From Exiguobacterium acetylicum DSM 20416 (lineage in GTDB: Bacteria; Bacillota; Bacilli; Exiguobacteriales; Exiguobacteriaceae): DNA of 64,000 nucleotides. Positions 1,964 through 59,889 of this stretch are shown piece after piece (within the stretch, counting starts at the first letter, position 1; every line of letters starts with the position of its first letter). The DNA is taken from contig NZ_JNIR01000001.1 of NCBI RefSeq assembly GCF_000702605.1, forward strand, positions 2,160,501 to 2,224,500. The letters run 5' to 3'. The translations under genes and the position numbers were made by a program. The notes beneath the pieces were generated by a model that was given only the letters and a program-made list of their open reading frames with translations, did no database searches and was not told the origin of the DNA.

Positions 1964-4093
1964 ATGAACTCAATTAGTGTCATCATTCCTGTCTATCAAA
2001 CTGAATCACAAACGAAGGCAGCCATTCAATCCGTTCTCGACCAGAAGGTATCTATCCCGGTGGAAATCGTCGTCGTCTTTGATGGTCCGAGCACATACAT
2101 CGATGAGCTCCGTTCCCTCTATCCGACATGTACGATCGTGGAACAGGCGCATCAAGGAACTTACGCTGCACGTCGACGCGGTCTTGAAGTCGCGACAGGT
2201 GATTACGTTACCTTCCTCGATAGCGATGATATCCTCGCACCACGTGCGCTCTATACGTATATCAAAGCCTATGAGAAATCACGCGGTGAAGTCATCATCG
2301 GTAAAGTCTCGCCCGTCTACAACAAGAAGAAATGGCTCATGCCGATCGATGATGATCGTTATTTCTTCTATACCCGTACAAAGTTCAGTTCACGTCATTT
2401 GACGACGATTCACGGTTGGATGATTAAAAAGGACTTGCTCAATGATCTACCTGTTCTTGAGACACGATGGTTCGCCGATACGATCATCGCCCATGCGATC
2501 ATCTCGAAATTGACGAACCTGACATCGGTCAGTTACGTTGTCTATGGTCGAAACTCACGCAGTACGCCACTCGAAGGACAATCGCTCTACCAAGCACGCG
2601 ATATCACGACTTTGTCCGATATCTCACGAATTTATGGCATGTTATCTGCCCATACGCAGGATCATGACGTTCAAAAGTTCTTGAATACATGGTACAAACG
2701 TTTCATCTCAAAACGTGGTCGCGCATTGCTTGAGCGAAGCTCTTCAAAAAGTCAGCAGGCAGACGTCTTCCGTCATGTCGCTTACGATTTAAGACGAACG
2801 AAGGCACAGAGTAAGTACCTGCAAGCATGGTCAACGGGTTCGTATATCATGTTCCGTTCATATATCACTGCTGTTAAGACAAAACAAACGTTACGGACGG
2901 CACGACGTAAAAAAATCAAGAACGGTCTCATGCTCTATCGTCTGTTCCAAAAGATGCCGGTCAAAGAGAACCTTGTCTTATTCGAGAGTTTCCTCGGACG
3001 AAGCTACTCCGATAATCCGAAGGCTCTTTATCTGAAATTAAAAGAACAACGTCCTGAACTTGAGCTCGTCTGGATTTTTGCGAATGAGCCTTCAGATGAC
3101 GTCAAGGAAGCTTGCCCGAACTGGGTGCTCAAAAACAGCTTCGCATACTACCAAGCGATGGCACGTGCGAAGTACTGGATCTTCAATACGCGTCAGCCAC
3201 TCAGCTTAACGAAACGCGAAGAGACAATCTACCTTCAAACGTGGCACGGTACACCATTAAAACGACTAGGTCTCGACATGGAAGAAGTCCATATGGCAGG
3301 AACGAATGCAACCCGCTACAAACGGAACTTCTACAACCAAGCACAGGAATGGAACTACTTGATTTCTCCGAATGCCTATTCGAGCGAAATTTTCAAGAGT
3401 GCGTTCGGTTTCCAAAACACGATGCTTGAGGCGGGATACCCACGAAACGACCTCTTGTATGCAGACGATCAAGCTGGTCTCATCAGTGAAATCAAAGCAC
3501 GCCTGGACATCCCTGCTGAAAAGAAAGTCGTCTTATATGCACCGACATGGCGAGATGACGAGTTCATCGCTCGTGGAAAATATCGTTTTGATCTCCAGCT
3601 CGACTTGAATGAGATGCAGGCCCGACTCGGTGACGATTATGTCGTCTTGCTCCGGATGCATTACTTGATCGCGCAAAACATGGACATCAGTGGACACGAA
3701 GGATTCGCCTATGACGTCTCTTCGTACGGCGATATCGCAGAGTTGTACTTGATCAGTGACGTACTGATCACTGACTATTCGTCTGTCTTCTTCGATTACG
3801 CCCACTTACAGCGTCCAATGATCTTCTTTACGTATGACTTAGAGAAATACGCGTCGACGTTACGTGGATTCTACTTCGATTTCGAAGCAGTCGTTCCGGG
3901 ACCACTCTTGAAAGAGACAGATCAAGTCATCGATTATATCGAACAGATCGATACGAAATCCATCGCTTACCAAGAAAAGTACGACCGCTTCCTCGAACGG
4001 TTCTGCAGTCTGGACGATGGTACGGCAAGTGAACGTGTTCTTGCTGAGTTGTTCCCGAATACAAGCTCAGCAGATGTTGAAGATGCTGAATAA
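1964..4093 (+). CDS. Bifunctional GT2 glycosyltransferase / CDP-glycerol glycerophosphotransferase
   Basis: 709 residues, two enzymes in one chain. Residues ~4-110 are a family-2 glycosyltransferase: SVIIPVY start, the VVVFDG motif, and TFLDSDD as the DxD-type metal site. Residues ~330-690 are a TagF/TagB-type CDP-glycerol polyglycerophosphotransferase, shown by FESFLGRSYSDNPKAL, TWHGTPLKRLG, YAPTWRDDEF, LITDYSSVFFDYA and GFYFDF. The enzyme should build or decorate a glycerol- or ribitol-phosphate wall polymer at the inner membrane face using nucleotide sugars and CDP-glycerol. AAGGAG lies seven bases before the ATG. No other wall-polymer gene is adjacent, so the exact polymer is not known. 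Confidence 0.9.
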   Translation: MNSISVIIPVYQTESQTKAAIQSVLDQKVSIPVEIVVVFDGPSTYIDELRSLYPTCTIVEQAHQGTYAARRRGLEVATGDYVTFLDSDDILAPRALYTYIKAYEKSRGEVIIGKVSPVYNKKKWLMPIDDDRYFFYTRTKFSSRHLTTIHGWMIKKDLLNDLPVLETRWFADTIIAHAIISKLTNLTSVSYVVYGRNSRSTPLEGQSLYQARDITTLSDISRIYGMLSAHTQDHDVQKFLNTWYKRFISKRGRALLERSSSKSQQADVFRHVAYDLRRTKAQSKYLQAWSTGSYIMFRSYITAVKTKQTLRTARRKKIKNGLMLYRLFQKMPVKENLVLFESFLGRSYSDNPKALYLKLKEQRPELELVWIFANEPSDDVKEACPNWVLKNSFAYYQAMARAKYWIFNTRQPLSLTKREETIYLQTWHGTPLKRLGLDMEEVHMAGTNATRYKRNFYNQAQEWNYLISPNAYSSEIFKSAFGFQNTMLEAGYPRNDLLYADDQAGLISEIKARLDIPAEKKVVLYAPTWRDDEFIARGKYRFDLQLDLNEMQARLGDDYVVLLRMHYLIAQNMDISGHEGFAYDVSSYGDIAELYLISDVLITDYSSVFFDYAHLQRPMIFFTYDLEKYASTLRGFYFDFEAVVPGPLLKETDQVIDYIEQIDTKSIAYQEKYDRFLERFCSLDDGTASERVLAELFPNTSSADVEDAE

Positions 4094-4105
4094 GGAGACA
4101 CAATG

Positions 4106-4147
4106 AAAAAGGAGAAAGATGCGCTTTTGCGCTCTTTCTCCTTTTTC
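4106..4147. terminator. Bidirectional terminator
   Basis: A 14-bp stem AAAAAGGAGAAAGA / TCTTTCTCCTTTTT capped by an inner GCGC stem separates the convergent glycerophosphotransferase and DUF1643-like genes. T-tracts lie on both strands, so it can serve both. Confidence 0.85.
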
Positions 4148-4150
4148 GTA

Positions 4151-5074
4151 TCATCGTCTACGATACGGTGCAATCCGTTCTTTAAACTCAGGATGGACGA
4201 AACTAGGACGTAACGATAAGACGACCTCACCGAGGAGATGTTCTACCACGTCGTCCCATCGTTCGACGATTTCAGAAGAGGTCTTCGCAGATACATCCCC
4301 CTCTTCGAGTAATGCTGTCTCATCCGTTGTTCTCATGAAGACCCACGTATCGTCAGATCGTTTGCGTCCCATTAAGGTGATACGTCCACCTTCCATCCGG
4401 TACAGAAGGATTCGCTCCCATTGACGCTTCCGACTCGGTACCATGACTTCACGATGTCGCGCGATGATTTGCTCTTTGATCATTTTCTGACTAGCATCGA
4501 GATTCGGACACAGATGATAAAAATCATCTGTTCGTGGGTGCTTGATACCAAAGTGCGGAATACCTGATGCTTCGAGACGCTTCATCCACTCCACTTTCGC
4601 TTGTCGTAAGTGTATCCAACGGATAAGATGTCTCTGCACTCCCCATCCTGTAATCACGAAAGGATGTCGACGCAATTCTTCGACTGACGCAAACAACGTC
4701 TGCTTTTCAAAGGAGGTTTCCTGACAGAGTTCTTCGAAACGATTGATCGATGTGACATCATTGCCGTGTTGCATAGGGAATAAATTGTATAGATGAAAGC
4801 GCCCCGATAAGGCTTGTCCTTCGTAGATTCCTTCTACGATACGAACAATCTGACACATCGTTTTATCTAATTGTCCAACCTCACCAGTCGCTTGTCCTAT
4901 CATCTCAAGTTGTGGACGTAATGCCGGATCCACTGTCGCAGATCCTGGATTCAACATCAGACATGCCCCTAGTGACGTCTCACTTTCCCCCCACTGAATG
5001 TATGTATGATAGCGATACAATACGTCTTGTTCCAATCGGAATGTTGCGTACACTTGAACATCGTTAGCCGTCAT
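4151..5074 (-). CDS. DUF1643-like protein of unknown function
   Basis: 307 residues, soluble, no signal peptide. The N-terminal half carries GACLMLNPGSATVDP and, ~80 residues later, FHLYNLFP. These resemble the LNPSTAD and VVNLF signatures of DUF1643 proteins. The C-terminal third has an ERILLYRMEGG...ITLMGRKR stretch that I do not recognise. The start at the second of two adjacent candidates (GTG-ATG) is chosen because GGAGG lies seven bases from the ATG. It is a single gene, convergent with the glycerophosphotransferase. Biochemical role unknown; the family assignment is only moderately secure. Confidence 0.6.
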   Translation of the reverse strand: MTANDVQVYATFRLEQDVLYRYHTYIQWGESETSLGACLMLNPGSATVDPALRPQLEMIGQATGEVGQLDKTMCQIVRIVEGIYEGQALSGRFHLYNLFPMQHGNDVTSINRFEELCQETSFEKQTLFASVEELRRHPFVITGWGVQRHLIRWIHLRQAKVEWMKRLEASGIPHFGIKHPRTDDFYHLCPNLDASQKMIKEQIIARHREVMVPSRKRQWERILLYRMEGGRITLMGRKRSDDTWVFMRTTDETALLEEGDVSAKTSSEIVERWDDVVEHLLGEVVLSLRPSFVHPEFKERIAPYRRR

Positions 5075-39261: not shown

Positions 39262-39370
39262 ACTACTTATCGAGAGCGACCGAGGGATTAGGCCCAACGA
39301 CGTCCGGCAACCACCTATCAGGAACGGTGCCACATCCTACAGAATGGATTTCATTCTGAGAGATAAGTTA
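39262..39370 (+). ncRNA. SAM-I (S-box) riboswitch
   Basis: Closing stem CTTATC...GATAAG, the GAGCGACCGAGGGATTAGGCC core, the CGACGTCCGGCAACC segment, and a GGTGCCACATCCTACAG segment are all present in the S-box order. SAM binding should favour the terminator that follows and shut off methionine uptake. Confidence 0.97.
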
Positions 39371-47266: not shown

Positions 47267-47720
47267 GTCGTCACCCCCTTCTTTCAGCATTACCCAAAAA
47301 AAGGCACAAAAAAACGCCTCATCAGCGTGTCGTTGTTTTTGGTTGTCATGAGAATCGAGGATTACAGGTGATCAAAACACCTGAAACGACGAAAGCCCTA
47401 CCTCTCTTTCGTTGTTACGGCTCCTTGGCCGCGCCAGCTGAATCAAGCATTTTAGCAAGAATCGTGATGCGTCTGCAACGGACGCATGATACTGGGATTT
47501 TTAGAAATAGCTCGGGAATGAGCGGAAAAGTATCGATTGGAAGGTTTATCTTGCTGGGTCAACTTCTCCTCGTAGTATGAAGAAGGACAAAATAAAAGCG
47601 ATGACTTATGTCTGACTCATTTGTCAGTAGCGGTCTAAAAATCCTGACCTGTCGATTTAATTGTATGATATGGATTGAAGATTCTCACATGAGTGATCAT
47701 CCCCGATTCATGACTTATAT
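47267..47720 (-). other. Long structured leader upstream of the YdaT-like gene
   Basis: From a promoter at 47722-47751 the minus-strand RNA would run ~450 bases without a gene. Successive helices: GATACT / AGTATC around 47487-47534 with an inner GCTC / GAGC, ATGCGTC / GACGCAT (47467-47487), CGGC / GCCG near 47418-47431, AACGACGAAAG / CTTTCGTTGTT (47385-47416), CAGGTG / CACCTG (47365-47383), then the terminator. Layout suits a large riboswitch or other cis-regulatory RNA, but I recognise no known class. Confidence 0.45.
47308..47328 (-). terminator. Leader terminator before the YdaT-like gene
   Basis: Minus-strand ACGCT...AGGCGT hairpin followed by T7, placed before the gene's ribosome site, so it would attenuate and not end the gene. 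Confidence 0.6.
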
Positions 47721-53995: not shown

Positions 53996-55084
53996 CTAGC
54001 GTTCCATGTCATCGGCAACGATTTGAATATCGATCCCGCGGACATGACGCATGATTTCATTGATGATCGATCCACGCCGGACTTCCTGCCAACGGGTCCG
54101 TGCAGATTGACCGAGGACGATTTGAGTGATGCGATGATGCTTGGCAGCTGCCGTGATCGCTTGGGCAATCGAGCGCTCCCCTTGGATTCGGATCAGCACT
54201 TCTGCCCCGAACAAAGAGCCACTCTCGCGGACCATCGCTAAAACTTCTTTTTGTTTTGCATTCAATTGATTCTCAACCGTCGGTAAAATCGTCAGTACAT
54301 ATAGATCTGCTTTTAGCCGACTCGCCATCCGAAAACCACGATAGATCAACTTCCGCGCGTTGTCGTTGAGCTGGATACAGACGAGAATCCGTTCTTGTAG
54401 CGACGCTGGATCCTTTTCAATCAACAAGCGTGATTGATAGACTTGATCGTCGACTTCGTCCGCGACCTGACGTAGCGATAACTCACGTAAGCTCGCAAGA
54501 TTCTGAAGCGAAAAAAACGAATTCAAGCTCTGTTCAATCTTTTCCTTCTTATAGATCTTTCCTTGCTCGAGTCGTTCCCGTAACGTTTGTGGCGTGACAT
54601 CGACGAGTAGAATCTCATCGGCTTCACCGAGAAACGGATCCGGGATGCGTTCCCGGACTTCGACGCCCGTCACTTCTTTGACTTTAAAAAGCAAGCTTTC
54701 GAAATGCTGAATGTTGACGGCCGAATAGACATTGATTCCCGCCTCAAGCAGTGCTGCGACATCTTGATAGCGTTTTTTTCGTACCGATCCTGGCGCATTC
54801 GTATGCGCCAGTTCATCGATCAGTACGATATCGGGGCGACGGGCAATGATCGCGTCCACGTTCACCTCGGGGAATGTCTTGTCCTTATAGACGACTTCAA
54901 GTAGCGGGACTTGTTCGAGTTGCCCGACCATCTCTGCCGTCTCTTTTCGACCATGCGTCTCAATCAGACCGATGACGACATCCTTACCTTCAAGCGTCAA
55001 TGTTCGTGCATCGGCCAGCATCTTATACGTCTTTCCGACACCAGGAGCTGAGCCGATGTACAGCTTCAGCTTTCCTCGTGTCAT
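53996..55084 (-). CDS. kdpD: Stand-alone KdpD N-terminal sensor (ATPase-USP, no kinase)
   Basis: 362 residues against ~900 for full KdpD. Residues ~1-210 are the KdpD domain with Walker A GSAPGVGKTYKM and Walker B DIVLIDELAHTNAPGS; ~230-360 the universal-stress-protein domain (ILVCIQLNDNARKLIYRGFR to IVLGQSARTRWQEVRRGSII). The four membrane helices, GAF and histidine kinase parts are absent, and no kdpE is nearby. In Staphylococcus the KdpD USP domain binds c-di-AMP, so this short form may sense c-di-AMP directly at the transporter. ATGA overlap with kdpC. Confidence 0.92.
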   Translation of the reverse strand: MTRGKLKLYIGSAPGVGKTYKMLADARTLTLEGKDVVIGLIETHGRKETAEMVGQLEQVPLLEVVYKDKTFPEVNVDAIIARRPDIVLIDELAHTNAPGSVRKKRYQDVAALLEAGINVYSAVNIQHFESLLFKVKEVTGVEVRERIPDPFLGEADEILLVDVTPQTLRERLEQGKIYKKEKIEQSLNSFFSLQNLASLRELSLRQVADEVDDQVYQSRLLIEKDPASLQERILVCIQLNDNARKLIYRGFRMASRLKADLYVLTILPTVENQLNAKQKEVLAMVRESGSLFGAEVLIRIQGERSIAQAITAAAKHHRITQIVLGQSARTRWQEVRRGSIINEIMRHVRGIDIQIVADDMER

Positions 55085-55602
55085 GACTTACTCCGATCAA
55101 GTGCTAAGTTCAAGCGCAGGACGTTGACGTAATCATGGGTTCCGGCTTCCTTCGTGATTAACTTCCGTACTTCTTCACGCGACAGGTCGCGTGCGGTTGC
55201 GATACGCTTCGCCTGCACCAAGGCATAATCGACTGAGATGTGCGGATCGAAGCCAGAACCGGATGTCACGAGGGCATCGTCCGGAAGCGAAGCGCCGTCC
55301 ACTTGGTTCTGTTTCTGTAATTCCGCCATCTTCGTGCCAAGCTCCGGGTTCGATGCTGCTAGGTTATCCCCAGCAGACGCTCCCGCTAATTGATCGACTG
55401 CTGATGGACGTCCGTGAAAATACTGTTTCGACGTGAACGGCTGGGCAATCAATTCCGATCCGATGAATTTTCCGTTTTCTTGCACTAAAGAACCTTCTGC
55501 TTTATCTGGTACGAGCAATTGACCGAATAATGTCAACAAAGCGGGAAAGACGATCCCGCATAACGCTGCGACGAAGACCGTCACACGAATGGCTTGTTTC
55601 AT
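55081..55602 (-). CDS. kdpC: Potassium-transporting ATPase subunit C
   Basis: 173 residues. One N-terminal membrane helix, then the extracytoplasmic domain with IGSELIAQPFTSKQYFHGRP, NLAASNPEL, DALVTSGSGFDPHISVDYA and TRDLSREEVRKLI. Stabilises the KdpA-KdpB complex and aids potassium binding. 14 bases after kdpB. Confidence 0.97.
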   Translation of the reverse strand: MKQAIRVTVFVAALCGIVFPALLTLFGQLLVPDKAEGSLVQENGKFIGSELIAQPFTSKQYFHGRPSAVDQLAGASAGDNLAASNPELGTKMAELQKQNQVDGASLPDDALVTSGSGFDPHISVDYALVQAKRIATARDLSREEVRKLITKEAGTHDYVNVLRLNLALDRSKS

Positions 55603-55616
55603 GATTCGTTTTCTCC

Positions 55617-57686
55617 TTAGAGGATGCTTGCAAGCAAGACATCGATGATTTTAATCCCAATGAACGGTACGACGACACCGCCAAGACCGTAGATCAGTAA
55701 GTTACGACCGAGTAATTGATCCGCCGTCATCGGTTTGTAAGTGACTCCTCGCATCGCAAGCGGAATCAACATCGGAATGATGATCGCATTGAAGATCAAG
55801 GCAGACAAAATCGCTGTCGTCGGGGAATCAAGACGCATGATATTGAGTACTTCCATCTGTGGAATGGCGACCATGAACATTGCCGGGATGATCGCAAAAT
55901 ATTTCGCGACATCGTTTGCGATCGAGAACGTCGTCAACGCTCCCCGTGTCATCAAGAGCTGCTTCCCGATTTCGACGACTTCGATGATTTTCGTCGGGTT
56001 TGAATCAAGATCAATCATGTTCGCTGCTTCTTTCGCCGCTTGTGTTCCGCTGTTCATCGCGAGACCGACATCGGCTTGAGCGAGTGCCGGTGCGTCATTC
56101 GTACCGTCTCCCGTCATCGCGACGAGGTGACCGGCTGCTTGTTCCTGCTGGATGACACGAATCTTGTCTTCCGGCTTACATTCCGCGACGAAATCATCGA
56201 CGCCTGCTTCGCGGGCGATCGTTGCTGCCGTCAACGGGTTATCTCCGGTACACATGACCGTCTTGATGCCCATTTCACGTAAACGATCGAATCGTTCCCG
56301 CATGCCCGGTTTGACCGTATCTTTTAAATAGATGACGCCAAGGATCGTTGCGTCGATCGCGACGACAAGTGGTGTGCCACCGAGACGAGAGACCGCATCT
56401 ACTTTCTCTTGCAAATCATTCGGAATCGTTCCGCCTTGTTCTGTCACCCAATCTTGAATCGCTTGTCCCGCCCCTTTCCGTACACGGCGTCCATCTCTTA
56501 AGTCGAGTCCGGACATTCGTGTCTCTGCTCGAAACGGTACAATCTCTGCGCCATCTAACCAGTGTTGTTCAACCGGCATTGCGCGAAGTTCAGCGAGTTC
56601 AAGAACGGAACGTCCTTCTGGTGTCTCATCAGCGAGCGAGGCGAGGATTGTCCCCTCGAACGCCTGCTCAGCAGTACGCTCACCGACTGGCGTGATCTCC
56701 GACGCCATCCGGTTACCGAACGTGATCGTTCCTGTTTTGTCCAGGATGATCGTCTGGATATCGCCTGCTGCTTCGACCGCCTTCCCGCTCATCGCGATGA
56801 CGTTGAAGCGGGTGACTCGGTCCATCCCGGCGATTCCGATTGCGGACAGCAAGCCACCGATCGTCGTCGGGATCAAACAGACGAGTAAGGCGATCAAGAT
56901 TGGACCTGACAGATCAAATCCAAGGTAGTTCGTAAAGACAGGTAATGTCATGACGACAAGTAAGAAAATCAATGTCAAGCTCGTCAAGAGCGTTGATAAC
57001 GCGAGTTCGTTCGGTGTCTTCTGACGACTTGCGCCTTCAACGAGGGCAATCATCTGATCGAGGAATGACTCACCTGGATTACTTGTGATCCGGACTTCGA
57101 TCTCGTCACTGACGACGAGTGTTCCGCCGATGACCGATGAGAAATCACCGCCTGCTTCCTTGATGACGGGTGCGGATTCACCGGTGATCGCTGATTCATC
57201 AATCGAAGCAAGTCCTTTGATGATTTCACCGTCACCCGGTACATACTCCCCTGCTCGGACGAAGACAATATCTCCCTTCCGAAGTGTCGCCGACGAGACG
57301 CTTTGAATCAGTTGTCCGACACGTTTACGGGCCATGACGTCTGCTTTCGACGCTTTCAGTGAGTCCGCTTGTGCTTTCCCACGTCCTTCCGCGATCGACT
57401 CCGCGAAGTTCGCGAATAAGACCGTCAAAAAGAGGATGATGCTGACCGTTAAGTTAAAGCCACGCATCTCGTCAATGAAGATCGTATAGCCGATTGCGAG
57501 CAAGCAACCGATCCAGACGACGAACATGATTGGTTGTTTGACCATATTGACGGGATTTAATTTTTTAAAGGCATCGATCGTCGCTTGACGCGCGATCGAG
57601 CCATTGATTGCTGATTTGGATTGGTGTTCCGGCTCCCCGTTCGGTTGGTGTTCCTCGGGCGTCGGATGCATGATTCGTTCCATCAT
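55617..57686 (-). CDS. kdpB: Potassium-transporting ATPase subunit B
   Basis: 689 residues, P-type ATPase of the IA class. [10 protein letters not shown] actuator, [10 protein letters not shown] phosphorylation site, [20 protein letters not shown] and [18 protein letters not shown] hinge motifs are intact. Seven membrane segments. Couples ATP hydrolysis to potassium import through KdpA. Confidence 0.98.
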
Positions 57687-57703
57687 ATGCTTTTATCTCC
57701 TGT

Positions 57704-59344
57704 TCACATCGTCAGCCAATCCGCGACCGGTCCAAGTACGAGCACTGGCAAGAATGTCAATGCACCGACGAGTACGACCGTACCGAGGAAGACTGTTCCG
57801 AAGAGTGGTGTATCTGTCTTAAACGAAAATTCATCTTGAGGAACCGATGGCTTCGCTTTAAGCGAACCCACGATTGCAAGCATCAAGATCAATGGGATGT
57901 AGCGTCCGAAGAACAGCGCGAATGATGTCGAGACGTTCCAGTAGACGTTGGCGTCGCCAAGCCCTTCAAACCCGGATCCGTTGTTCGCCGTCGCGGACGT
58001 GAACTCGTACAAGACTTGCGACAGTCCGTGATAACCTGGATTCGAGATACCGGCAACGCCTGGTGCAGCGTACATCGAGATTGCCGTTCCGACGAGAATC
58101 AGGAATGGCGGTACGAGTAGCGCGATCGCGATCATCTTCACTTCGAACGTCTCGATTTTCTTTCCGAGGAACGTCGGTGTCCGACCGATCAAGAGACCTG
58201 TCAGGAAGACTGCGACGAAGGCGTAAAGCAAGACGTTCAGGAATCCTGCACCTGCTCCACCGTAAACGACGTTAAGCATCATATTGCCGAGCTGGATCAA
58301 TCCAGCAAGTGGATGCAGCGAGTCATGCATCGCGTTGACCGCTCCGGTTTCAGCTGCCGTCGTGATCGAACTGTAGAGCGCCGTTCCGATTTGACCAAAT
58401 CGTAATTCCTGACCATGTGCCGTTGGATTCGCAAGTAAGCTCCCTGCCATCCCGACCGTCATCATGATGAAGAGAAGCGTCATGACATCAAGGAATAATC
58501 GTCCTTGTTTCGCCGAACCGATGATTTTTCCGTAAGCGATCGGAAGTGACATCGGAATCAGTAGCATCAAGAACATCTGGATGAAGTTGACGAATTGGTT
58601 CGGGTTCTCGAATGGATGAGCACCATTGACACCAAAGAAACCACCACCGTTGTTCCCGAGCTGTTTGATGACTTCAAAAGCAGCGACCGGTCCACGGTAA
58701 ATCAACTGCTTCGCTCCTTCGAGCGTCGTGACGCTGACCGCCCCTCCGAACGTCTGTGGTACACCGAAGACGATCATGACCATCCCGAACACGAGTGAAA
58801 TCGGAATCAGGATCCGCAAGATGAAGCGAACGAAGTCGGCATAGAAGTTACCGAGCGGTTTGTTCGCAAGACCACGAATGACAGCGATACAGACCGTGAA
58901 CGCCATCGTTGGAGCGACGAACAACATCGTTCCAAGGACGAACGTTTGCGAGAGATATGAGAGTGCCTCGCCTGAATAGTGTTGTTGATCGGTGTTCGTC
59001 ATGAAACTGATCGTCGTATGCAACGCTGTCGACCAATCGAGATTCACAGCACCGTTCGGATTGAGCGGTAGACTGCCTTGGAAACGAAGTAGCAAATAAC
59101 CACCGATGAAGAAGAAAATATTTACAAGCAACAAACTTTTCGAATAGCCGACCCACGATTGATCGTGTTTCTTTTCATCGACGCCGAGTAACAACAGGAG
59201 CCGTCGTTCGACCTTACTGATTTTATCGACCCGACGCTCTGCGACAGGTGCGAAGTATATCCCGATGTAGCGACCAAGCAAGACCGCCGCGCAAAGTGCG
59301 ATGACGAGTAGGATCCAAAATTGGATCATGAATTGAGTCCACAT
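57704..59344 (-). CDS. kdpA: Potassium-transporting ATPase subunit A
   Basis: 546 residues with ten membrane segments of the SKT fold. Selectivity-filter loops are visible: SFMTNTDQQHYSGE, NNGGGFFGVNGAHPFENPN, TTAAETGAVN and TANNGSGFEGL. Potassium-binding channel-like subunit. 23 bases after kdpF. Confidence 0.98.
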   Translation of the reverse strand: MWTQFMIQFWILLVIALCAAVLLGRYIGIYFAPVAERRVDKISKVERRLLLLLGVDEKKHDQSWVGYSKSLLLVNIFFFIGGYLLLRFQGSLPLNPNGAVNLDWSTALHTTISFMTNTDQQHYSGEALSYLSQTFVLGTMLFVAPTMAFTVCIAVIRGLANKPLGNFYADFVRFILRILIPISLVFGMVMIVFGVPQTFGGAVSVTTLEGAKQLIYRGPVAAFEVIKQLGNNGGGFFGVNGAHPFENPNQFVNFIQMFLMLLIPMSLPIAYGKIIGSAKQGRLFLDVMTLLFIMMTVGMAGSLLANPTAHGQELRFGQIGTALYSSITTAAETGAVNAMHDSLHPLAGLIQLGNMMLNVVYGGAGAGFLNVLLYAFVAVFLTGLLIGRTPTFLGKKIETFEVKMIAIALLVPPFLILVGTAISMYAAPGVAGISNPGYHGLSQVLYEFTSATANNGSGFEGLGDANVYWNVSTSFALFFGRYIPLILMLAIVGSLKAKPSVPQDEFSFKTDTPLFGTVFLGTVVLVGALTFLPVLVLGPVADWLTM

Positions 59345-59367
59345 GTTTTTCTGTTCTCCCTATGCGA

Positions 59368-59448
59368 TTAGAATTTTTCTGGATACATCAGACAATAACC
59401 GAGATACAAGAAGACGAGGCAACCCGTCGCCAGTAAAAACCATGTCAT
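59368..59448 (-). CDS. kdpF: KdpF small subunit
   Basis: 26 residues, too short for most gene finders: MTWFLLATGCLVFLYLGYCL followed by MYPEKF. One membrane helix with the LGY motif and the F/Y-P-E-K/A-F end found in KdpF. Its position directly before kdpA is the normal one. It stabilises the complex in the membrane. Its ATG overlaps the stop codon of an upstream 35-codon ORF (ATGA). Confidence 0.9.
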   Translation of the reverse strand: MTWFLLATGCLVFLYLGYCLMYPEKF

Positions 59449-59552
59449 TTGCGGTCACCTGCTCTCCACTGGACACGCTCGATCAGATGAATCATCCTGA
59501 ACGTCGTACCGAAGAAGAAGGCAAGCAGTAAAATACTCCACAGCTCTCCCAT
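59445..59552 (-). CDS. 35-residue membrane peptide upstream of kdpF
   Basis: ATG after GGGGG (ten-base spacing), 35 codons: MGELWSILLLAFFFGTTFRM followed by a basic tail IHLIERVQWRAGDRK. One strongly hydrophobic helix with a positively charged C-terminal side. It begins after the riboswitch terminator and overlaps kdpF by ATGA, so it should be translated whenever kdp is expressed. It could be a second small subunit of the Kdp complex or a translation-coupling leader. I recognise no family. Confidence 0.65.
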   Translation of the reverse strand: MGELWSILLLAFFFGTTFRMIHLIERVQWRAGDRK

Positions 59553-59599
59553 TATGAAATTACCCCCATATTATTCAATATTTTTACATTTAAACACGA

Positions 59600-59642
59600 C
59601 AAAAAGACGATGTGAGGCAATAAACGGCCCCAGCATCGCCTT
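59600..59642 (-). terminator. c-di-AMP riboswitch terminator
   Basis: Minus-strand GGCGATG / CATCGTC outer and GGGGC / GCCTC inner stems with G-U pairs, then T5. Lies between aptamer and the first ORF, so it is the expression platform. Confidence 0.85.
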
Positions 59643-59683
59643 GATAACTTGGCATACTGAAAAAGAGTCGTTCCCTCCTAAAA

Positions 59684-59813
59684 CGCCTGCGAGGTTAGCT
59701 GTCGGATTCGGGCATACCTAGGAATTCGCCCTACCTTTCCCGTTCGGAAAGGATTCACCCCGTGTCACGTGTCGTGACGGTTGGGTCCCCCGCTTCAATC
59801 ATGAATTCGGCGT
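59684..59813 (-). ncRNA. c-di-AMP (ydaO-yuaA) riboswitch
   Basis: On the minus strand the conserved order is present: CGCCGAATTCATG, GGGGGACCCAAC, GGGGTGAATCC, AGGGCGAATTCC, GCCCGAATCCGACAGCTAAC and CTCGCAGGCG. In Bacillus subtilis this class controls the potassium importers ktrAB and kimA and turns them off when c-di-AMP is high. Here it controls kdp through the terminator that follows. Confidence 0.97.
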
Positions 59814-59860
59814 ACTTTGAGATCGAAGCATTAACATGTTAGTGTTCGTTGATGAGATGG

Positions 59861-59889
59861 ATATTACTCCGATTGTTTGAGGTTGTAAA
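59861..59889 (-). promoter_or_regulatory. kdp operon promoter
   Basis: Minus-strand TTTACA, 17-base spacer, TAATAT, about 48 bases upstream of the aptamer. Confidence 0.65.

Follow-up and report, generated by a model that had tools for sequence, protein, structure and literature searches.

In Bacillus thuringiensis BMB171, the kdpFABC operon is described with a riboswitch, a truncated kdpD and a missing kdpE (Wang, 2019; PMC6488665). According to that report, cyclic di-AMP (c-di-AMP) promotes termination in the leader, and the level of c-di-AMP drops at low potassium. Further, the KdpD domain has been characterized as an atypical serine kinase, lacking ATPase activity, that phosphorylates Ser162 of KdpB and stops the pump (Silberberg, 2024; PMC11018627). 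The same paper reports that the short KdpD of Deinococcus geothermalis phosphorylates KdpB under c-di-AMP stimulation, and it names double control by riboswitch and KdpD. In addition, a differential radial capillary action of ligand assay (DRaCALA) screen detected binding of c-di-AMP to a truncated Bacillus KdpD (PMC11302148). Here we analyzed the kdp operon in a 64-kb stretch of the Exiguobacterium acetylicum DSM 20416 genome (hereafter, the window). Its Kdp pump is probably governed by c-di-AMP instead of the KdpD/KdpE two-component system (KdpDE), with the short KdpD as a second off-switch. Because the arrangement and the double control are already in print (PMC6488665, PMC11018627, PMC11302148), the Exiguobacterium operon adds to a known arrangement.

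The locus resembles that of B. thuringiensis BMB171 in having a ydaO-type aptamer and a terminator before kdpFABC, a truncated kdpD after kdpC and no kdpE (PMC6488665). It differs in that Exiguobacterium belongs to another family, in that kdpD overlaps kdpC by 4 nt, and in that no other c-di-AMP riboswitch was found in the genome. As in D. geothermalis, the short KdpD consists of the KdpD and Usp domains only, and the kinase residues and the target serine of KdpB are kept; in contrast, kdp of Deinococcus radiodurans is described as being under a separate two-component system rather than a riboswitch (PMC11018627). Staphylococcus aureus KdpD shares homologous KdpD and Usp domains and the Usp fold (structure 7ji4), but is a full-length histidine kinase with KdpE and has all five positions of its c-di-AMP contact motif, of which the window's protein has one (PMC8214093, PMC4686210). 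Finally, in Bacillus subtilis KtrAB and KimA one messenger acts on the leader RNA and on a protein of the same system (PMC11018627); these are other transporters, whose protein arm is reported there, whereas the protein arm in the window is a candidate. The word Exiguobacterium does not occur in the main texts of PMC6488665 and PMC11018627, although their supplementary species lists may include it.

The leader RNA of the kdp operon

On the minus strand, the operon reads promoter, aptamer, terminator, a 35-amino-acid open reading frame (ORF), kdpF, kdpA, kdpB, kdpC and kdpD. The genes from kdpF to kdpD are separated by 14-23 nt or overlap, and they are therefore likely to form one operon. The elements of the leader are as follows.

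59861..59889, minus strand: promoter TTTACA-N17-TAATAT, from a consensus scan
59669..59822, minus strand: c-di-AMP (ydaO/yuaA) riboswitch aptamer, RF00379, model positions 1-134 of 134
59596..59642, minus strand: intrinsic terminator (expression platform), from folding; stem 59604-59642, then a T run

The aptamer matched the full RF00379 model with 97.5 bits (gathering score, 38; E = 7.4e-22), and it was the sole match to this model in the 64-kb window and in the 3.28-Mb genome. The terminator stem comprises 15 pairs (-20.6 kcal/mol) with five T at its 3' side, two of them inside the stem. The original prediction had placed a ydaO-type aptamer and a terminator ahead of the whole operon, and both were recovered; its right coordinate falls on the promoter. 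In the 1.1-kb region scanned for the promoter consensus, four sites were found compared with 1.8 expected. When 20 leaders were compared (the window, 15 of genus g1 and four of genus g2), TTTACA-N17-TAAYAT occurred at the place of the promoter and a terminator followed the aptamer in every one. The spacer sequence AATCGG before the -10 box was also identical in all 20 (the window, L032-L047, L168 and L171-L173), and the first part of the spacer was variable.

Thus, as in the B. thuringiensis type, an aptamer and a terminator lie directly upstream of kdpFABC on the same strand. The genome further encodes one diadenylate cyclase and one 7TMR-HDED (PgpH-type) protein, suggesting that c-di-AMP is both made and degraded. 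Pairing of aptamer bases with the 5' arm of the terminator, as an alternative to the terminator stem, was predicted. A single fixed antiterminator was rejected, as the best alternative pairing sits in different aptamer segments across the leaders, and this counts against the proposed mechanism. Nevertheless, by analogy with its homologues the leader very likely functions as a c-di-AMP riboswitch. The proposed action of c-di-AMP on the RNA is supported by homology, that is, by the RF00379 aptamer, the terminator and a layout that was tested in B. thuringiensis (PMC6488665). When potassium is ample, c-di-AMP would be high and bind the nascent leader, the terminator would form and kdp would be silent. 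At low potassium, c-di-AMP would fall, an antiterminator would form and the operon would be transcribed.

KdpDE in the genome and in the kdp loci of Bacilli

A PF02702 search of the genome matched only the KdpD of the window, so that no second KdpD was found. We built a KdpE profile from 11 response regulators encoded directly 3' of kinase-bearing KdpDs. The best regulator of the genome scored 241.7 bits, inside the background (up to 248.7 bits), whereas KdpEs scored 287.8-372.8 bits, a range that includes seven genomes outside the profile (G021, G027, G101, G218, G316, G063 and G267). Of a KdpDE system, neither the histidine kinase domain nor the membrane sensor domain nor KdpE was found, and KdpD ends after Usp in a genome with no detected KdpE, as in the B. 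thuringiensis type. The original prediction had stated that neither a histidine kinase nor KdpE is present, and this holds for the operon; genome searches (PF02702, KdpE profile and DUF4118) likewise found no second KdpD, no KdpE and no membrane domain of KdpD. It had also named a full-length kdpD/kdpE pair elsewhere as one observation that would overturn it, and a genome-wide search found no such pair.

Nonetheless, kdp might also be controlled by a histidine kinase and a response regulator encoded elsewhere in the genome, in which case the two-component system would not have been replaced. The KdpE profile picks up at least eight of the genome's regulators at E values up to 1e-45, as it does relatives of KdpE, and the best of them stays under the lowest KdpE score. 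Further, DUF4118, the membrane domain of KdpD, was not found in the genome, whereas 4/4 KdpE-bearing genomes searched have it. Although riboswitch and KdpE coexist in two loci of family f22 (see below), we consider such remote control very unlikely.

To place the locus among its relatives, we used 398 Bacilli genomes, of which 143 exceeded the PF02702 cut-off (16 of the window's genus and 127 others). From these, 127 kdp loci of 121 genomes were taken, comprising 119 of the 127 non-genus genomes together with G212 and G274 of the genus; G006, G050, G191, G201, G210, G237, G306 and G379 were outside the set. The window's genome and 13 further genomes of the genus stood outside the locus table and are known from the genome search and their leaders. 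The leader was unreadable in six of the 127 loci; without these, 121 remained, in which G287 and G367 are counted twice (overlapping loci). A locus was scored as carrying a riboswitch when a covariance model, trained on 14 aptamers, matched on the kdpA strand no more than 1.6 kb upstream of kdpA. Seven loci whose leader scores were weaker all exceeded the RF00379 gathering score in a check against Rfam. KdpE in the locus counts means KdpE within the fetched locus, and the genome-wide KdpE search covered 36 genomes. Histidine kinases were called by an H-box pattern, and a domain model was used for the DUF4118 check.

The riboswitch was present in 62/121 loci. KdpE was missing in 60 of these 62, compared with 9 of the 59 loci without a riboswitch, and these counts of riboswitch and KdpE are new in this analysis. 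Genome-wide, 21 of 22 riboswitch genomes had no KdpE and all 14 non-riboswitch genomes, eight of which had supplied the profile, had one. As far as the account in PMC6488665 goes, 12 species showed no exception to mutual exclusion, whereas the present sample holds 62/121 loci with two exceptions; the counts are not directly comparable because the samples differ (here, one genome a species and structure models). Two c-di-AMP aptamers in tandem preceded kdpA in L069, L073 and L087, and in L184 three consecutive aptamers lay on the kdpD strand, upstream of that gene (3339-4209).

On the KdpB tree (117 rows, with five covered loci outside), the riboswitch label changes at least nine times. Family f4 includes a group whose close sisters are divided, four having the riboswitch and others kdpDE upstream. 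Several observations weigh against an exchange. Nine loci have neither riboswitch nor KdpE. In G267 (L084) and G321 (L086), which are near twins, a riboswitch-led operon with a tandem KdpD stands beside a separate histidine kinase and KdpE, and the separate kinase of G267 carries DUF4118; strict mutual exclusion thus nearly holds but is broken by these two. Moreover, an independent-pair test on the KdpB tree gave six pairs, with KdpE opposite in 3-5 and the same way in none (p = 0.06-0.25), which is too few pairs to reach significance. Taken together, the lack of a detectable kdpE or kinase-bearing KdpD in the genome and the strong opposition of riboswitch and KdpE in the 121 loci support the claim that the two-component system has been replaced.

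Within the genus, 16/19 genomes had exactly one RF00379 match and one KdpD, on the same strand and about 4.6 kb apart, and in the other three neither was found. In the sister genus, 4/19 genomes had KdpD, each with one RF00379 match in the kdp leader among the matches listed; one of them, G248, had two PF02702 matches, one of which was placed. This co-occurrence, with promoter and terminator kept, indicates that the leader and the gene move together as a single cassette.

The short KdpD and the candidate ligand of its Usp domain

The features of the short KdpD and its presumed target are as follows.

53996..55084, minus strand: short kdpD, 362 amino acids; PF02702 at residues 3-211, Usp at residues 231-348 (54041-54394)
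55028..55054, minus strand: Walker A motif in the serine-kinase domain (GSAPGVGKT, residues 11-19), by alignment to E. coli KdpD
57174-57176, minus strand: Ser171 of kdpB, aligned with E. coli Ser162, at which phosphorylation is inhibitory

The protein matched PF02702 (E = 3e-89) and PF00582 (E = 1.2e-9), with no known domain after Usp and no membrane, GAF or histidine kinase domain found. The earlier description of the last gene as encoding only ATPase and Usp domains was therefore right as to the domains, but the term ATPase is outdated, since serine kinase activity and no ATPase activity are reported for this domain (PMC11018627). Against NF038185 (KdpD-like non-kinase), it scored 506.7 bits (E = 4.4e-152; profile positions 17-372 of 373), so that it has the same architecture yet lies under the naming cut-off of 550. 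A locus from an Exiguobacterium metagenome-assembled genome encodes a KdpD 98% identical to that of the window.

When aligned with E. coli KdpD, G17/K18/T19 correspond to G36/K37/T38, the Walker B residues D90/E91 (54812-54817) to D109/E110, and R171 to R190. Tyr20 replaces Trp39, which in E. coli holds the adenine together with Arg190; an aromatic/Arg pair is thus kept, with a different aromatic residue. In KdpB, E170/S171 and D316 correspond to E161/S162 and D307 of E. coli K-12. An AlphaFold2 model of the short KdpD (mean pLDDT, 81.1; pTM, 0.57) matched the KdpD N-terminal structure 2r8r with a TM-score over the target of 0.94. With the kinase and target residues intact, and by analogy with homologues, we are fairly confident that the short KdpD acts as a serine kinase on KdpB. 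It would serve as a fast off-switch that phosphorylates Ser171 of KdpB and stops existing pumps, and the Usp domain would control this kinase.

The short KdpD could instead be a remnant that has lost its function and is decaying. The whole transmitter half is missing from it, and in L201 (Rossellomorea), whose kdp locus has a riboswitch, the kdpD frame ends after 293 codons. Further, deletion of the short kdpD in B. thuringiensis is reported to leave kdp transcription unchanged (PMC6488665), a result that fits a post-translational role of KdpD but does not show one. However, the KdpD frame was at least 359 amino acids long in 62/62 riboswitch-led loci, the Walker B Glu was kept in 31/31 single units, and kdpD lies at the same place in the operon across the family. 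Decay is thus most improbable.

In all 62 riboswitch-led loci, KdpD had no histidine kinase by the H-box pattern; 29 were single, one of which (G190) consists of two adjacent genes, and 33 were tandem. These tandem proteins (KdpD-Usp-KdpD-Usp, about 780 amino acids, without a histidine kinase by H-box) occur in L051, L054, L055 and others (families f4, f7, f22 and f48). We had considered KdpD frames of 750-850 amino acids as full-length kinases, but most of them are tandem short KdpDs. In the riboswitch-led tandems, the catalytic Walker B Glu was lost in the first copy in 28/33 and kept in the second copy in 33/33, so the tandem KdpD is likely a pseudokinase fused to a kinase. Such a protein was not found in literature searches, and the main text of PMC11018627 does not contain 'duplicat', 'tandem KdpD' or 'pseudokinase'.

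What the Usp domain senses is the least certain part of double control. The contact motif derived from the S. aureus crystal structure is (A/G/C)-X-S-X-S-X2-N...(Y/F) (PMC8214093). At this place the window's Usp domain reads C-I-Q-L-N-D-N-A...T, agreeing at 1/5 positions: the essential Ser244 is replaced by Gln, Ser246 by Asn, Asn249 by Ala and Tyr271 by Thr; by the rule given in PMC8214093, weak binding is predicted. Among single short units of riboswitch loci, 31/31 agreed at 0 or 1 of the five positions, compared with at least three in 15/20 kinase-bearing KdpD rows (two genomes counted twice). This mismatch, the replaced Trp39 and the unchanged transcription in the B. thuringiensis deletion count against the main reading.

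Alternatively, c-di-AMP may act on the RNA only; the short KdpD would still be a serine kinase for KdpB, but its Usp domain may sense another nucleotide (ATP or AMP) or the kinase may be constitutive. Besides the motif, this alternative draws on a Usp loop, G-x2-[GA]-x9-G-[ST], that resembles ATP-binding Usps (motif from PMC8214093) and occurred in 29/31 single short units and 21/33 second tandem units of riboswitch loci, but in 0/37 second units with KdpE and 0/20 kinase-bearing rows. AMP- and cAMP-bound Usps were also among the fold matches. We dropped the loop as a mark of riboswitch KdpDs, as near relatives within families f4 and f7 deviate from it; it thus does not track the riboswitch in the closest contrasts. 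Moreover, the Asp that ATP-binding Usps conserve (PMC8214093) is replaced by Gln in the window. The second half of the KdpD model matched 7ji4, the c-di-AMP-bound S. aureus KdpD Usp, with a TM-score over the target of 0.79, the best among the Usp matches listed.

The motif itself is not decisive. D. radiodurans short KdpD, read from the alignment, likewise agrees at 1/5 positions, although the KdpD of its genus-mate D. geothermalis responds to c-di-AMP (PMC11018627), and the truncated Bacillus KdpD bound it (PMC11302148); the comparison used the sequence of D. radiodurans, not that of D. geothermalis. If double control is true, the Usp contact set must differ from that of S. aureus. We therefore lean slightly toward c-di-AMP as the candidate ligand of this Usp domain, by analogy with these proteins, and regard action on the RNA only as a less probable but serious alternative.

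Other genes of the operon and control of Kdp in Bacilli

The remaining genes of the operon are as follows.

59445..59552, minus strand: 35-amino-acid ORF, single helix, overlapping the kdpF start by 4 nt
59368..59448, minus strand: kdpF, 26 amino acids; PF09604 with 21.5 bits (cut-off, 21.2), under NCBIfam cut-offs
57704..59344, minus strand: kdpA, 546 amino acids; PF03814, E = 2e-196; TIGR00680 over cut-off
55617..57686, minus strand: kdpB, 689 amino acids; TIGR01497, 1064.7 bits
55081..55602, minus strand: kdpC, 173 amino acids; PF02669, E = 7.4e-54

The 35-amino-acid ORF (59552..59445) was absent from the gene list of the original prediction. It was intact in 16/16 leaders of the genus, each with a Shine-Dalgarno-like stretch as judged by eye. 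Its codons showed 132 synonymous and 83 nonsynonymous differences, compared with 41 and 181 for random placement, and 0/1000 simulations reached the observed level of constraint. No Pfam or NCBIfam match to the ORF of the window was found at E values up to 1. A small hydrophobic ORF (24-45 amino acids by the rule used) preceded kdpF in 106/121 Bacilli kdp loci, with or without the riboswitch. It is perhaps KdpZ, which is little known, or an overlooked subunit of the pump. A kdpZ is known from Alicyclobacillus. The gene order kdpZYABCXDE of Clostridium acetobutylicum is quoted in PMC5401905, and apart from this gene letter our literature searches found no description of a small ORF before kdpF.

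Elsewhere in the window, on the plus strand, a BsrC small RNA (47376-47461; 73.7 bits) and an S-adenosylmethionine (SAM) riboswitch (39264-39369; 80.7 bits) were detected. Outside Bacillota, Fusobacterium mortiferum (L223:8640-8774) has a c-di-AMP riboswitch (92.6 bits) before a short kdpD that is divergent from kdpA; in that arrangement, the messenger would control the synthesis of the serine kinase itself.

The mechanism set out above is modelled on B. thuringiensis and on the work on the KdpD kinase. For Bacilli at large, we tentatively propose, at somewhat under even odds, that riboswitch-led short KdpDs bind c-di-AMP through a Usp site other than that of S. aureus, so that one messenger would close both gene and pump, and that the leader is an exchangeable module that was repeatedly swapped with kdpDE while the serine-kinase KdpD was kept. 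With the riboswitch in 62/121 loci, the arrangement seems to be common among Bacilli, beyond the 12 species of the 2019 survey. Because the kdp leader holds the sole c-di-AMP riboswitch found in the genome, and in 3/19 genomes of the genus neither riboswitch nor KdpD was found, the genus is handy for gauging the share of Kdp in potassium control by c-di-AMP. The operon seems to offer a clean natural example of a two-component system being exchanged for an RNA sensor while the recently found second function of the protein was kept.

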